A stretch of DNA of 54,106 bases from Pseudomonadota bacterium (GCA_027487685.1 JAIYDC010000133.1:137325-191430); one strand, 5' to 3'; positions 4,520 through 30,228 are shown, counted from the stretch's first letter. Notes: generated by a model not told the origin, from the sequence alone. A program made the numbers and translations.

Positions 4520-6118
4520 ATGATTAAATTTTCCGACCTCCCTCTCCTTGAAACCATTCAAATGAATGTTGCTGCCGCGGGTTACGAGAACCCAACTCCT
4601 ATTCAGGAGCAGTCAATTCCATCACTTGTAGACGGGAAAGACCTCCTCGGCATCGCCCAAACGGGAACTGGTAAAACGGCAGCGTTCACACTCCCGATGA
4701 TCCAAAAGCTCTCCGCACGGGACTTTAGTCTCACGCCTAAAGAGCCGCGGTCCCTGATTCTTGCACCCACCCGGGAGCTCGCCGCACAGATCAAAGAACA
4801 AATCGATAAGTACGGCAAAGACCTCAAGGTCAAATCCGCCGTCATCTTCGGTGGTGTGGGCCAGGCCAGTCAGATCGCGAGCCTGCAAAATGGCCTCGAT
4901 ATCCTCGTCGCCACCCCAGGACGGCTCATTGACCTTATGAACCAGGGTTACTGCCGCTTGAGTAAAGTTGAAGTCTTCGTTCTCGACGAGGCCGACCGGA
5001 TGCTCGACATGGGCTTCATCCACGACGTCAAAAAAGTCATCTCCAAGCTTCCAGAGAATCGTCAGACGATGCTCTTCTCCGCTACTATGCCGGATGAAAT
5101 CGTCAGCATCGCCAACCGGATCCTGAAATCTCCAATTCGGATCGAAGTGACTCCTCCCTCAACCACGGTGGAACGGATTGAACAGCGAGTCTTCTTCTGT
5201 CAGAAGGTACACAAGTACCAGCTTCTGAAGAAAATCCTCCAGGAAGAGGGAGTGGATCTCACTCTCGTCTTTTCCCGAACCAAGCACGGCGCCAACAAAG
5301 TCGTCGAGTACCTTGATAAGTTCGGTATCCGCTCCGCCGCCATCCACGGCAACAAGTCACAATCCGCTCGTGAAGCTGCACTGGCGAACTTTAAAAGTGG
5401 CACCATGAAGGTCCTCGTTGCCACGGACATTGCGGCCCGGGGAATTGACGTCCAAGGTGTCTCCCACGTAGTGAACTTCGACCTCCCGGTTGATGCTGAA
5501 AGCTACGTTCACCGTATTGGACGTACTGCCCGCGCAGGTCGCGATGGGGTCGCAATTTCCTTCTGTGATGAAGGCGAGCGCGACGCGCTCTCAAGAATTC
5601 AGAAACTCATTAAGCTTAAGCTCCCGGTGGAATCTTTCGTCGGTGAGGCCGAATCATTCAAAGACACTCGGGCACCAAGACCATCAAGTGACCCTCGTTG
5701 GAAACCATCTGGCGCTCGCTCTGAAGGTTCACGTCGTCCGGAAGGCCAGAGGAATCAGTCCCAGGGCGGCCCTCGGCGTTCAGACGATTCCCGCAGATCT
5801 GAAGGTCAGCGGCGTCCCGATGATTCTCAAAGATCAGAAGGTCAGCGTACGTCCAATGATTCTCGCAGACCCGAAGGTCAGCGCACGTCCAATGATTCTC
5901 GCAGATCTGAAGGTCAGCAGCGGCCCGATGGCCAGCGAAGATCAGAGGGCCCCCGCAGACAGGACGGACAGAGACGTCCAGAAAGCACTCGGCGACCAGA
6001 CTCTCCGCAGAGTGGTGAACGGCCTCAAGGTGACCGCTCTAAGCCGGAATCGGGACAAGCCGAATCGGGCAAAGCGGGAAAAGGTAAATTGGGATTATTC
6101 TTTTGGAAGAAAAAATGA
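4520..6118 (+). CDS. rhlE: DEAD-box ATP-dependent RNA helicase, RhlE type, with repeat-rich basic tail
   Basis: All helicase core motifs are present: Q motif (GYENPTPIQEQ, near residue 21), Walker A AQTGTGKT (46-53), PTRELA, TPGRL, DEAD (about 156), SAT (about 185), and in domain 2 the ARGIDV and HRIGRTAR motifs (about 330-337). RhlE-type helicases unwind short RNA duplexes in ribosome assembly and RNA decay. After about residue 380 the protein changes into a low-complexity tail rich in Arg, Ser, Asp, Gly and Gln, built on a 12-residue repeat; such tails bind RNA. A ribosome binding site AAAGGG lies just before the ATG. The stop codon overlaps the next ATG (ATGA), so the small downstream gene is coupled. 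The rhlE name is by family resemblance. Confidence 0.9.
   Translation: MIKFSDLPLLETIQMNVAAAGYENPTPIQEQSIPSLVDGKDLLGIAQTGTGKTAAFTLPMIQKLSARDFSLTPKEPRSLILAPTRELAAQIKEQIDKYGKDLKVKSAVIFGGVGQASQIASLQNGLDILVATPGRLIDLMNQGYCRLSKVEVFVLDEADRMLDMGFIHDVKKVISKLPENRQTMLFSATMPDEIVSIANRILKSPIRIEVTPPSTTVERIEQRVFFCQKVHKYQLLKKILQEEGVDLTLVFSRTKHGANKVVEYLDKFGIRSAAIHGNKSQSAREAALANFKSGTMKVLVATDIAARGIDVQGVSHVVNFDLPVDAESYVHRIGRTARAGRDGVAISFCDEGERDALSRIQKLIKLKLPVESFVGEAESFKDTRAPRPSSDPRWKPSGARSEGSRRPEGQRNQSQGGPRRSDDSRRSEGQRRPDDSQRSEGQRTSNDSRRPEGQRTSNDSRRSEGQQRPDGQRRSEGPRRQDGQRRPESTRRPDSPQSGERPQGDRSKPESGQAESGKAGKGKLGLFFWKKK
5783..6000 (+). repeat. 36-base (12-residue) tandem repeats in helicase tail
   Basis: About six imperfect copies of a 12-codon unit with the protein pattern xxxDSRRSEGQR. 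The two central copies (both beginning TSNDSRR) are nearly identical at the DNA level, a sign of recent slippage or unequal exchange. Outer copies decay towards DGQRRPE. The unit is arginine-rich with regularly spaced acidic residues and would form a disordered RNA-binding tail. Copy number probably differs between strains. Confidence 0.85.
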
Positions 6119-25811: not shown

Positions 25812-27101
25812 TTAGGCGGTGAGTCCCGGTTTCTCAGAGTAAAGAGTTTGGAGTTCCTCACGGTAGGGCGCGATTTTATCTTCCTTATAGCCCCCCTTCT
25901 CCATCGCCTCGACCAGGGTAGAGATGAAGCGATAGTCGCGGATCTTCTTGTTCCAAAGTTCAAGGCCGATTTTAATGATGAAGCCAGGATCGGTAAATTT
26001 CTTACTACTCACAAGGAAGTCAGCAACCAGGTAATCTTCTCCATCCTTCGCATCTTTATCAAATCGGCTTAGAAATTTCTCTGCTTCGTCACACATTTCA
26101 TTTTCTACAAGAAGCGTGATGACGGCCCTGAGGAATTTCGTAAACTCCGAACAAGATACGGCGATATTATCAAAGTATTGGAATGCGGTATCCTTGTCTG
26201 AGTTCATGAGGCAGTACTTCCCCGCGATGTACATACCAGCTCCGATGTAGTTCGTCAGAACCTGAACTCGTACATCGAGGGATGTAAAAATCTCATAGAA
26301 CATCTGCATGTCCTGATAGTTACCGGTGCGGACAGCAAGACGGATGATCTGTGCTAAGCGGTCGGGATTCGCTGGGAAGAACTTCGCAATTTTTTTCACG
26401 ACCTGATAGGCTTCGAAAAACTTCTCCTCGCGCATGAAAACCTCGTAAAGACCTACGAGGCATTTGTAGTGAATGTTGTTGAAGTTTAGGCCCTCGTTAT
26501 ACGAGCCAGCAGCTGTATCCACGTGGTTCTTCAAGTACTCGGCTTGCCCGATATAAAAATATGCGAGCGCTGGTTTAGGATGCATGCCCCGAGCGACATT
26601 AAGAACAGCGATGGCATCGTCGTACTTCCCGGCAGCGAGAAGTATCTTCCCCTCTTCGATCTTCTTAATGTAATCAGAAGGCATCACTTTCTGAGTAACC
26701 GTCGAGATCAAATTCTCCTGGATACTCTGGATCGTGTAAGGCTTGATGATGAAGGAATCTACGTCTTCCTCCGCAGCTTTAGCGACAGCGGTCTGAGAGA
26801 TATTAGACGTCACAAGAACTAGGCAAAGCTCTTTCTTGCTGGGGTACTTTTCCCGTAAGATTTTAAACAGATCGAACCCCGATCCACCTCCAATAAAGTA
26901 GTCGGAGAGGACGAGACCAATGCTTTTTGTCTGGATGACTTCCTGGGACTCTAGAAGAGTCCCCACTGAGTGTATAGAGCTGCGCTTCGCCCCAAGATCG
27001 ACCATCGTCTTCAGGAGCCGACTACGTGAACTAGGGTTCTTATCTACGATAAGAACTTCGTTCGCTTCAAGAAATTTTTTCAGAACTTCTTTCTTGTCCA
27101 T
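25812..27101 (-). CDS. Response regulator receiver domain with TPR-like helical repeats
   Basis: 429 residues. Residues 14-135 are a receiver domain with Asp20 at strand 1, phosphorylation site Asp67 (VLSDYF), Thr98 and Lys120-Pro121 all in place. From about 145 the protein is helical with TPR-like units (GKILLAAGKYDDAIAVLNVARGMHPKPALAYFYIGQAEYLKN and similar). No DNA-binding or enzyme output is seen, so the output is likely protein contact through the repeats. It is the third gene of a minus-strand operon, two bases after the previous gene. It is the only one of the three with an intact phosphorylation site. Confidence 0.85.
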   Translation of the reverse strand: MDKKEVLKKFLEANEVLIVDKNPSSRSRLLKTMVDLGAKRSSIHSVGTLLESQEVIQTKSIGLVLSDYFIGGGSGFDLFKILREKYPSKKELCLVLVTSNISQTAVAKAAEEDVDSFIIKPYTIQSIQENLISTVTQKVMPSDYIKKIEEGKILLAAGKYDDAIAVLNVARGMHPKPALAYFYIGQAEYLKNHVDTAAGSYNEGLNFNNIHYKCLVGLYEVFMREEKFFEAYQVVKKIAKFFPANPDRLAQIIRLAVRTGNYQDMQMFYEIFTSLDVRVQVLTNYIGAGMYIAGKYCLMNSDKDTAFQYFDNIAVSCSEFTKFLRAVITLLVENEMCDEAEKFLSRFDKDAKDGEDYLVADFLVSSKKFTDPGFIIKIGLELWNKKIRDYRFISTLVEAMEKGGYKEDKIAPYREELQTLYSEKPGLTA

Positions 27102-27103
27102 CG

Positions 27104-27832
27104 TCAGAAACCTGCCGCCTTAGAAAGAAATTTTGTAATATTACCTTGCTTCATATTGAGATAATCCAAAAATTGCTTCCAATGCCTTCGGTACTTTTCG
27201 TCGACTACGAAGACCTGACCACTCGGACACTTCTCATCAAAATATCCGGGTATTATAAAGCTGTGGTACCGGTCTTCAAGTACGACCGCGAACTTCAGCA
27301 CCCCAAAAGTTCCTCTCGAAAATTCTTGCTCTAGCGATAGGTACAAATTATCCTCATTTATCTCCGAAGGGACTACGAGGAAATTATAATCGGAAACGCA
27401 GATTTCTATCTTAATTTCATTCGGATCGATCATCTCTAACAGACTCTGTTGATAATCATTGAAGTTAAAAAGGAGTTTCGAGATTCCTGACAAAATCCGT
27501 CCAGTCTCATGCTTCTGAAAGATGTTGGCGATCGCTTGCTTCTGAGACAGTTCTTTATCAGATCCAAAGGGGTGACCTACGCAAGTAAAGATCGGTAAGA
27601 AGGTGAGGTTTTTTGTACACCAATCCATTAACTGGTAAATGATTCCGTCGGACAGGTAATAATTTGAGATAACTAAATCAAATTCAAACTTAGAGAGTAG
27701 ATCCCTCGCCTGACCCATGTCGGCAGCGACGAAGCAGCGAGCACCATGGCGGGCAAGTTCATTCGCCAGAGGATTCAAGAATCCCGGGTCACTGTCGGCA
27801 ATAAGGATGGCGTTACCGTCTAGACGAATCAT
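27104..27832 (-). CDS. Pseudo-receiver protein with PilZ-like C-terminal region
   Basis: 242 residues. The N-terminal 120 fold like a receiver (ILIADSDPGFLNPLANELARHG; acidic Asp13 and Asp15), but the position of the phosphorylated Asp is Asn57 (VISNYYL). It is therefore probably not phosphorylated, or mimics one state. The C-terminal half (IEICVSDYNFLVVPSEINEDNLYLSL...GVLKFAVVLE) has the strand order of a PilZ-like barrel, but no RxxxR motif for c-di-GMP is evident. The last residues, KQGNITKFLSKAAGF, match the end of the upstream protein. It starts with an ATGA overlap with that gene. Confidence 0.7.
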   Translation of the reverse strand: MIRLDGNAILIADSDPGFLNPLANELARHGARCFVAADMGQARDLLSKFEFDLVISNYYLSDGIIYQLMDWCTKNLTFLPIFTCVGHPFGSDKELSQKQAIANIFQKHETGRILSGISKLLFNFNDYQQSLLEMIDPNEIKIEICVSDYNFLVVPSEINEDNLYLSLEQEFSRGTFGVLKFAVVLEDRYHSFIIPGYFDEKCPSGQVFVVDEKYRRHWKQFLDYLNMKQGNITKFLSKAAGF

Positions 27833-30228
27833 AGTCCTTTCACCAGTTTGAGGAACTCGTCGACGTTACCTTGGCGGGTCTTATAAAGTTCCATAAACTT
27901 TCCGAAGGCAAAAACGTTCTCCGCCGATAGTGTAACTGTAACATAAGTGCCTCCTTCCCCGTCACTGTCCAATCCCGAAACCACTCCCGGTAGGGTAAGA
28001 TTTGTATCTTTCTTATTGAGCTTAAAGGACAGATTAAGACTAACCGCTGCTTGAGGCGTAAGACCGGGATCTTGTGCGAGAAAGACGATGGTGTCATCAA
28101 AGAAATCGTTAAGCTCCGAGGTGATGCGCTTCTGCTGAGAGGAGATCGTGCATGATACGCGAGCGTCTCCTGTTATGTCCTGAAGCCCTGCCTCGTCAGT
28201 AGCAACTTGGGTGACCTTCCTCGCAGCATCATTGCGTGCCTTCTCGAGTGGAAGGATCTCTGCTGTCCTCTCTGCGATAGGTTTTGGGTCAGTATCTGCA
28301 GGGTAAGATGATATATCTCCCCGACCCCGACGACGACCAGGTTGGTCGCCATACTCATCATCAAAATTACTTGTTCCTGAGTCCCCACCGTTGCGGTCTT
28401 TTCGTCGCCCCTCTTTTTCATAAAGGTCGTCCTCAGTCGTCTCCTCGTAGGTATCGGAATAGGTCTCGGCTTCCCTCATGACTCGGTTCGGAGTTCGTGC
28501 TTCTCGATCGAGAGGTTTCCCATAGTGTGATGAAAGTGTTTCCGTGGCTTTTTTTCTAGCTATCTCTTCTGGAGTTTCACCCTCCGGGCCTAGACCATCT
28601 TTGTGACCGTAATGAGAGTCGATTTTATCCGTCGAAGACTTACCACTTGGGTTCTCCGACGATGCTTCCCTACTATTCTTTCCGCCGTAATGAGCGTCAA
28701 TTCGATCCGTCGAGGACTTACCACTCGGGTCCTCGTCGGACGATACTTCTTTACTATTCTTTCCGCCATAATGGGATTTTAAATGATCGGTATCACCTTT
28801 CCCTGAAAGGTCGGAATCTTTCCCTTTAGCGTCTTTCTCTGATGCAGATCTATCCTTTCCATCATAGTACTTTGGAACCTTGTCAGTTTCAGTCTTGCCC
28901 GTTAAATCTTTGGCCTCTTCTTCACGAAAGGCTTGACGCTTCTTCGGGTCTTCTTCGTCTGCCAAATACTTCTTCGGTTCATTGTGATTCTTGTAATACT
29001 TCTGATGGTCCATCTCATCCTTGGACTCAAGCAGCGGGGAATCCACTGAACCACCCGCCTTAGCACCTTCAGAATTACCGCCTAATGCTTCCTCTTTTCC
29101 TTGCTTACCGCCCCAGAACTTTGAATCTTTTGAAGTATTCGACTTTCCCTCTAAATTATCATCAGAGATTTGATCATCAAAATCAGTTTTGCCGGACAGG
29201 TTCCCTGACCTATCGGCAGCTGTCGAATTTTTTCCTTTGAGATTGCTACCGTCGATCTGATCAGTGTTCGATTTTCCCTCAAGGTCTTCGAGGTTCTCAG
29301 CTTCTTTACGGAAGACCATCTCTTTGTCGAAGCTCTCGATAATGAATGGTTCTTTTGTCTTCGCGTAGATCGAGTTCTTGCAGATCGTGAGGACTCGATC
29401 CTTGGCATTTATCCGACTGAAGATCTGCTTACTATTTTTAAAAAAGAGATTGAAATTATCGCCTGATATGAGCCAGATGTTCTCCTTCCAAACGAAGTCG
29501 GGCTTTTGATCTCCGGAGAAAAACCATGCGCCTTCATTCGGGACGTAAATTTCTTTTTCTTCTTCCTTTATCTCATAGCGCCAAAGACCAGGTTTTAACT
29601 CATTCCACTGGCCCACGTAAGGGCTTGGCCCCATGATCCGGACGAGCCATTTGCCGAGGATTTTTTTACAGTCTCCGGTGGCCTTGATAAGCCAAATGTC
29701 ATCCTCAAGCTCCAGAGGCTCGATAATAATTGGTGTATCGTTGCTTTTTTTATCACCGTTACCTGAATTCCCGTCAGCAGAATTTGAACCAGAGACCTTC
29801 GCGGAAGACGCCTGTTTCGCATTACTCATTTTTGACTGAGCGTTCAATGACTTCATCCAGAAGTCGATCTTAAACTTCAGGGCCTTCGTATTAATCGTCG
29901 GCTCGATAAAGTCTTGAATACCCAGCTTAGCAATGGCCTTCTCGAAAGTTCGATCACCGCTAAAGTTAACAACAACGATCTTAGTAACAATATCCTTCGC
30001 AACCTTCTTGCGGACCTTCAGAAAGGTTGCAATCTGGATGAGGTCATTTTTATCTTTTAAGGAGGTCACTATCAGTGCTGCTGGTGTCGTTGAAAGGAAC
30101 GTGGCCAAGTCATTTGCGAGAGCATAGTTCTCAACCCCAAAACTTGGGCTCAACTTCAATGCTTCAGATAACGTTTTGTATTCCTCTCGGAAGAGAAACT
30201 TAACGACAGGAATAGACGAATCGCTCAT
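27829..30228 (-). CDS. Large multi-domain receiver-like protein with repeat linker and PilZ-like end
   Basis: 799 residues. Residues 1-130 look like a degenerate receiver (strands FLFRE, ALIVTS, KIVVVNF and a 'DFIEPTINTKALKFKI' end, where the usual Lys-Pro is Glu-Pro), without a clear phosphorylation Asp. Residues about 180-310 form a tryptophan-rich region (WLIKATGD, GKWLVRIMGPSPYVGQW, FVWKENIWLI). Residues 310-640 are a charged, low-complexity linker with repeats ending in SHYGGKN. The final 130 residues (VSCTISSQQKRITSELNDFF...SLNLSFKL) resemble a PilZ-like barrel and end RQGNVDEFLKLVKGL. It is the first gene of the operon; its role is unknown. Confidence 0.72.
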   Translation of the reverse strand: MSDSSIPVVKFLFREEYKTLSEALKLSPSFGVENYALANDLATFLSTTPAALIVTSLKDKNDLIQIATFLKVRKKVAKDIVTKIVVVNFSGDRTFEKAIAKLGIQDFIEPTINTKALKFKIDFWMKSLNAQSKMSNAKQASSAKVSGSNSADGNSGNGDKKSNDTPIIIEPLELEDDIWLIKATGDCKKILGKWLVRIMGPSPYVGQWNELKPGLWRYEIKEEEKEIYVPNEGAWFFSGDQKPDFVWKENIWLISGDNFNLFFKNSKQIFSRINAKDRVLTICKNSIYAKTKEPFIIESFDKEMVFRKEAENLEDLEGKSNTDQIDGSNLKGKNSTAADRSGNLSGKTDFDDQISDDNLEGKSNTSKDSKFWGGKQGKEEALGGNSEGAKAGGSVDSPLLESKDEMDHQKYYKNHNEPKKYLADEEDPKKRQAFREEEAKDLTGKTETDKVPKYYDGKDRSASEKDAKGKDSDLSGKGDTDHLKSHYGGKNSKEVSSDEDPSGKSSTDRIDAHYGGKNSREASSENPSGKSSTDKIDSHYGHKDGLGPEGETPEEIARKKATETLSSHYGKPLDREARTPNRVMREAETYSDTYEETTEDDLYEKEGRRKDRNGGDSGTSNFDDEYGDQPGRRRGRGDISSYPADTDPKPIAERTAEILPLEKARNDAARKVTQVATDEAGLQDITGDARVSCTISSQQKRITSELNDFFDDTIVFLAQDPGLTPQAAVSLNLSFKLNKKDTNLTLPGVVSGLDSDGEGGTYVTVTLSAENVFAFGKFMELYKTRQGNVDEFLKLVKGL
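28594..28815 (-). repeat. Repeats of the SGKSSTDxIDxHYGGK type in the receiver-like protein
   Basis: Three clear copies of a unit with the pattern SGKSSTDRIDAHYGGKN, separated by short acidic spacers. Related shorter units (LSGKTDFDD, LEGKSNTDQ, LTGKTETDK) occur further upstream in the same gene between about residues 310 and 480. The DNA of the copies is also similar, with 'TCCGTCGA(A/G)GACTTACCAC' recurring on the plus strand, which points to internal duplication. Confidence 0.8.

Follow-up and report, generated by a model that had tools for sequence, protein, structure and literature searches.

How can receiver-like proteins act together when each has lost part of the phosphorylation switch? 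The question is raised by three packed genes, here called A, B and C, in a stretch of 54,106 nucleotides (positions 1-54106, hereafter the window) from contig C145 of the 3.8-Mb genome (G000) of a Bacteriovoracaceae bacterium, a member of the family of the predatory Bacteriovorax. What turns pseudo-receivers on and off is regarded as an open question (PMC12632262). An earlier, sequence-only reading of the stretch had proposed a non-enzymatic signalling complex in which one phosphorylatable member acts with two pseudo-receivers. Our best explanation, to which we assign a probability of roughly 0.6, is that the locus encodes a phosphorylation-independent protein-interaction module, an adaptor pair whose ancient core consists of C and of Ct, the domain at the end of A. 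This reading is based on the pairing of the two genes, a fusion of A to C, conservation, and the loss of catalytic residues, including those of the degenerate receivers of A and B. A non-enzymatic complex is on the same evidence still the best reading, but its division into one phosphorylatable and two pseudo-receiver members is not retained. The three genes are as follows.

27829-30228, minus strand: gene A (799 amino acids, aa), encoding a pseudo-receiver, an all-beta domain (M), a disordered linker and the PilZ-like Ct domain
27104-27832, minus strand: gene B (242 aa), encoding a pseudo-receiver and a Ct-type domain; accessory
25812-27101, minus strand: gene C (429 aa), encoding a receiver and tetratricopeptide repeat (TPR) adaptor; the best conserved of the three

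The packing of the genes was as previously described, with an overlap of 4 nt (ATGA) between A and B and a gap of 2 nt between B and C. All three were under purifying selection, the proportions of nonsynonymous and synonymous differences (pN/pS) relative to the nearest relative being 0.162/0.763 for A, 0.080/0.723 for B and 0.046/0.738 for C.

Ct and C as the constant unit

Profile comparison with hhalign matched the Ct domain of A to that of B (97.7% probability, E 1.4e-12) and, more strongly, to stand-alone proteins of approximately 125-170 aa found elsewhere in the phylum Bdellovibrionota (98.9%, E 2e-17). Judged from these profiles, the Ct of A, the Ct of B and the stand-alone proteins are one homologous domain. 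The loci examined comprised 60 from GTDB genomes, one of which was a false match, and 20 from distant families. C was the most widespread component, present in 109/290 genomes of the phylum at E values up to 1e-40 and in many families. Among the 78 C loci with readable upstream sequence, an open reading frame (ORF) for Ct or B lay directly upstream of C in 69; one further locus had B interposed and another had the genes fused, giving 71/78, while the remaining seven (five lone copies of C and two distant loci) lacked Ct. The spacing from Ct or B to C was mostly −7 to +14 nt, and no Ct matches occurred elsewhere in the same loci, except for A genes upstream of a B.

Which gene carried Ct in front of C depended on the lineage: A in the Bacteriovoracaceae and in some other groups, a Ct standing alone in lineages farther away, and B wherever B was inserted. 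The pair was kept in other families in which the genomic surroundings differ entirely. Within the genus, A and C were both present in 22/26 genomes, both absent from three, and C occurred alone in one (Fisher p = 0.0015 for co-occurrence in 26 genomes, uncorrected for relatedness and genome incompleteness). In Halobacteriovorax sp. bin_209, A and C form a single ORF of 1215 aa (L080:3610-7257; L052:5108-8755), the same stretch being present in G021; they are joined in frame, with a loss limited to the final residues of A and the initial residues of C. In another genome (G034; L059, L100), Ct is encoded on its own, by a gene lying between those for A and C.

B was found in only 7 of the 26 genomes of the genus, a minority, and is a dispensable accessory; what is conserved is therefore the pair and not the trio. 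The constant unit is the pair of Ct and C, of which A is a tethered form. This pair is phylum-wide, and the trio in the window is a locally expanded version of it.

The host genome also contains a second, more divergent A-C pair (L013:2-1471 on contig C132 and L015:2-2116 on contig C33), interrupted by a contig boundary, the two contig ends sharing 74 identical bases; the genes that follow it resemble an Mla-type ABC transporter. Scans for promoters and terminators around the locus gave no score above shuffles, the whole window yielded neither an Rfam family at gathering score nor a tRNA gene, and tblastn of C against plasmids gave no match.

Receiver chemistry of C

The receiver of C was recognised by profile (PF00072, E 2.9e-10, 40.7 bits against a cut-off of 30.2). 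The TPR-like repeats that had been noted in this protein were confirmed, with Pfam TPR_16, TPR_19 and TPR_14 above cut-off at residues 149-203 and the remaining repeats supported by alignment.

26697-27065, minus strand: receiver of C (residues 13-135), with D20, K21 (the position of CheY D13), D67, T98, K120 and P121
27039-27041, minus strand: codon of Lys21, where the metal-ligand acid is lost
25842-26669, minus strand: TPR and TPR-like helical repeats of C (residues 145-420; Pfam and alignment)

The receiver had earlier been described as intact, which did not hold: the five-residue set of two acids (DD), D, T and K is incomplete in C, the second acid being Lys21. The second acid is the direct metal ligand, and under the definition of 2025 the absence of any one of the five makes a receiver a pseudo-receiver (PMC12632262). 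At this position (CheY D13) none of 56 relatives had Asp; Lys occurred in 33, Pro in 6, Ala, Thr and Ser in 4 each, Arg and Gln in 2 each, and Glu in one. Since the metal-ligand Asp is replaced in all 56 relatives, C is a pseudo-receiver, and A, B and C all fall under that definition. The acceptor position (CheY D57) was Asp in 48/57 relatives and Glu in 9/57. The candidate single phosphorylatable member of the complex was rejected: in no relative does C have the direct metal ligand, and Lys13 or Glu57 is frequent.

Both substitutions have counterparts in the laboratory. E. coli CheY carrying D13K or D57E is constitutively active, the former being poorly phosphorylated and the latter not at all (PMC4671073). 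By comparison with these mutants, the receiver of C looks biased towards the active state, and it is quite likely that C is not phosphorylated.

An alternative would be that C is a working response regulator, in which D67 is phosphorylated with the help of one acid and some other metal ligand, so that phosphorylation toggles the binding of Ct, with A and B as unphosphorylatable partners. The C family retains the other catalytic positions (D12 in 55/56, T87 in 57/57, K109 in 57/58 and D57 in 48/57, with P110 in 58/58), unlike most pseudo-receivers, in which D, T and K are each down to approximately 65% (PMC12632262). Against this, the direct metal ligand is non-Asp in all relatives, being mostly Lys, and the acceptor is replaced by Glu in nine. 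Moreover, no histidine kinase gene was recognised beside the Ct-C pair, whose surroundings vary by family, although kinases were not searched for systematically. We consider this explanation unlikely.

The Ct domain and the architecture of A and B

A six-stranded barrel followed by a C-terminal helix was predicted for the Ct of A (residues 689-798) and for that of B.

27832-28185, minus strand: Ct domain of A (residues 682-799), six strands and a C-terminal helix with a predicted PilZ-like fold (AlphaFold2, AF2)
27832-27876, minus strand: terminal motif of A, RQGNVDEFLKLVKGL, on the C-terminal helix
27107-27421, minus strand: Ct-type domain of B (residues 138-242), ending in KQGNITKFLSKAAGF (hhalign, AF2)

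A and B had been noted to share the end [KR]QGN[IV]xxFLxxxxG[FL]. The shared end is real and homologous, as the profile match of the two domains indicates, and a relaxed form of it recurs across the phylum, but the precise GN version is confined to the window. The Arg, Phe and Gly of the motif were invariant in 35 A-type members. The relaxed motif closed 33/35, 10/12 and 10/11 family members, as against 0/1173 other ORFs (100 aa or longer) from the same loci.

As to the PilZ-like regions that had been described, the predicted fold agreed and the sequence did not. A Foldseek search with A matched the PilZ domains of 4xrn, Alg44 and VCA0042 at E values of approximately 6e-4 to 2e-3; Foldseek gives no query range, and these matches were assigned to Ct rather than to domain M by topology and length. 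Among the matches listed by VIA for the A and B models there was no PilZ domain, the lists being filled by receiver chains. Pfam PilZ (PF07238) was not reached above its curated cut-off by any protein of the window and matched only 2/35 relatives, with a best E of 0.0065. Sequence searches of Ct against solved structures gave nothing meaningful, and profile comparison of Ct and B with the PilZ domains of their own genome gave weak probabilities of 2-31%. The c-di-GMP (cyclic dimeric guanosine monophosphate) motifs RxxxR and [DN]xSxxG were missing from nearly all Ct members. The models support a PilZ-like Ct as a fold, and not as a c-di-GMP-binding sequence.

These results also bear on the possibility that Ct serves as a c-di-GMP receptor whose site has diverged, with C as the effector, the two forming a second-messenger switch. 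The predicted fold would suit such a receptor, and the same genome encodes recognised PilZ-domain proteins, one of which also combines a receiver with PilZ; the missing motifs and the poor agreement with Pfam and with the PilZ profiles of the genome make this explanation very unlikely. Less probable still is that A, B and C are functionally unrelated neighbours held by local synteny; the whole neighbourhood is indeed syntenic within the genus (MgtE, an M14 peptidase and others), but the Ct-C pair persists where the surroundings are wholly different and A and C are fused in one genome.

In front of their Ct domains, both A and B carry the receiver-like folds that had been expected from sequence.

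29809-30228, minus strand: receiver fold of A (residues 1-140), every catalytic position replaced (AF2 pLDDT, the predicted local distance difference test, approximately 90; VIA Z 13; residue counts)
29314-29736, minus strand: conserved all-beta domain M of A (residues 165-305; AF2 pLDDT approximately 93)
28249-29313, minus strand: linker of A (residues 306-660, approximately 355 residues), predicted disordered (pLDDT 30-45)
28594-28908, minus strand: degenerate repeats within the linker (residues 441-545), of the type SGKxxTDxxxxHYGGK
27467-27832, minus strand: pseudo-receiver of B (residues 1-122), with D13, S14, N57, V at T87 and Q at K109

Residues 1-144 of A were predicted as receiver-like with a pLDDT near 90, and the model matched solved receivers at Z up to 13 (VIA). 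Sequence methods did not recognise this head as a receiver: Pfam on 27 members and profile comparison with C both failed, and it is the predicted structure that supports the fold. With positions placed by the predicted topology, the lack of an acceptor Asp was confirmed, the position being occupied by Leu57 in A and by a hydrophobic residue in 27/27 relatives, while that of the conserved K109 was Glu or Asp in 24/27. Domain M was the most conserved portion of A and the linker the fastest evolving (pN/pS comparison). No Pfam or PDB relative of M was found by sequence search, and profile comparison revealed no similarity to the PilZ domains of its own genome. Its invariant residues are D, W, P, W and W, and the domain also occurs in A paralogues without Ct (L014:8673-10022). 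Of the linker repeats GK[ST]xTD and HYGGK, the first type reaches eight copies in one relative (L099) and is absent from others.

For B, the model (mean pLDDT 83) showed a receiver fold, a six-strand barrel and a long C-terminal helix, and its receiver matched solved receiver structures over 116 residues (1.6 Å; VIA Z up to 18.7). The receiver residues read D, S, N57, V, Q and K, including the Asn57 noted earlier, and vary among relatives. Two proteins in the position of B have near-canonical receivers: one (L108:5232-5972) has all five residues, and in the other (L107:5182-5961) only the T is replaced, by Ser, while D, D, D and K are retained. Because of these two proteins, the B lineage has probably degenerated from working receivers, of which they are likely the forms before decay.

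Proposed working and comparison with known systems

In the proposed module, the receiver of C, having lost its metal ligand, would rest in an active-like state, so that the TPR array of C forms a standing docking platform. Ct would bind C directly, using its barrel and the helix conserved at its C-terminus ([RK]QxxIxxFLxxxxG); such direct binding is likely, the gene pairing and the fusion being indirect evidence for it. In the Bacteriovoracaceae, A would carry Ct on a long flexible tether behind its pseudo-receiver and domain M, linking C to partners of the folded head of A. B would be a second subunit composed of a pseudo-receiver and Ct; by occupying the site on C that the Ct of A uses, it could add diversity or competition. 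The module would be controlled through expression, localisation or partners that bind a ligand, rather than by phosphotransfer or, judging by the motifs, by c-di-GMP. By analogy with FrzS-SgmX and with the hub of RomR and a TPR protein in Bdellovibrio, a polar or predation-related function can be imagined, but it is doubtful. In a bolder reading, which is less likely than not, a switch module would have turned into a permanent docking platform: a pair spread through the Bdellovibrionota, in which CheY lock-on substitutions (Lys at D13, Glu at D57) became fixed in C and the partner lost the c-di-GMP motifs, would then have grown, in the Bacteriovoracaceae, to include as many as three pseudo-receivers.

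Several points weigh against the docking module. The A-C fusion is known from only one metagenome-assembled genome. The five lone copies of C without Ct (L086, L087, L089, L092 and L093, located around position 6000 or near the start in short loci) indicate that C also occurs away from Ct; four of them have a methylglyoxal-synthase-like gene immediately upstream. The D13K and D58E substitutions in Myxococcus EpsW gave no constitutive activity (PMC4671073), so a locked-on state of C does not follow from sequence alone. In addition, conservation of C at D57, T87 and K109 is strong, which would not be expected of a receiver that had given up phosphate chemistry altogether, and weak phosphorylation of C using one acid is possible. 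As a separate observation, three genomes with a lone C (G016, G024 and G007) carry A on another contig.

The family comprises dozens of natural receivers bearing laboratory "locked-on" substitutions, nearly always beside one candidate partner domain, in a predatory phylum. It offers a testable protein pair together with an evolutionary series, from canonical or near-canonical receivers in the B position (L107, L108) to degenerate ones, and from stand-alone to tethered Ct. No paper describing the Ct-C pair was found in the literature, searched by words and without a locus tag, which is weak evidence of absence.

Among known systems, the closest in principle is that of Myxococcus xanthus, in which FrzS, a pseudo-receiver with a coiled coil, binds SgmX, a protein of 14 TPRs (PMC11580455; PMC12632262). 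The module proposed here would be analogous to it, not homologous, in that a pseudo-receiver protein and a TPR protein act together without phosphorylation (PMC11580455; PMC12632262). Unlike in FrzS-SgmX, the TPR protein C has a receiver of its own, its partner has a PilZ-like domain, and the genes are paired. The polar hub of RomR and a TPR protein in Bdellovibrio (PMC3983030; PMC6428892; PMC11025332) belongs to the same phylum as the host of the locus; RomR is reported to have lost phosphorylation of its receiver (PMC6428892), and the TPR protein SgmX1 (Bd2492) is located at the invasive pole (PMC3983030). Bd2492 is described as TPR only and RomR as a receiver with a C-terminal region.

Within the host genome itself, a receiver-PilZ protein on contig C85 (L160:1051-1764 in G000; 237-244 aa) is similar to B in length and in layout, a receiver being followed by a PilZ-type barrel. 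It keeps DD, D, T and K and matches Pfam PilZ above cut-off, whereas in B both the catalytic residues and the PilZ motif are gone. The atypical receivers of TadZ/CpaE (4myr, 4lda, 4dad and 4n0p) were among the top Foldseek matches and are among the solved structures nearest to the N-terminal domain of A. In TadZ/CpaE the receiver continues into an ATPase domain; A, unlike these proteins, has a beta domain and then a disordered linker after its receiver.

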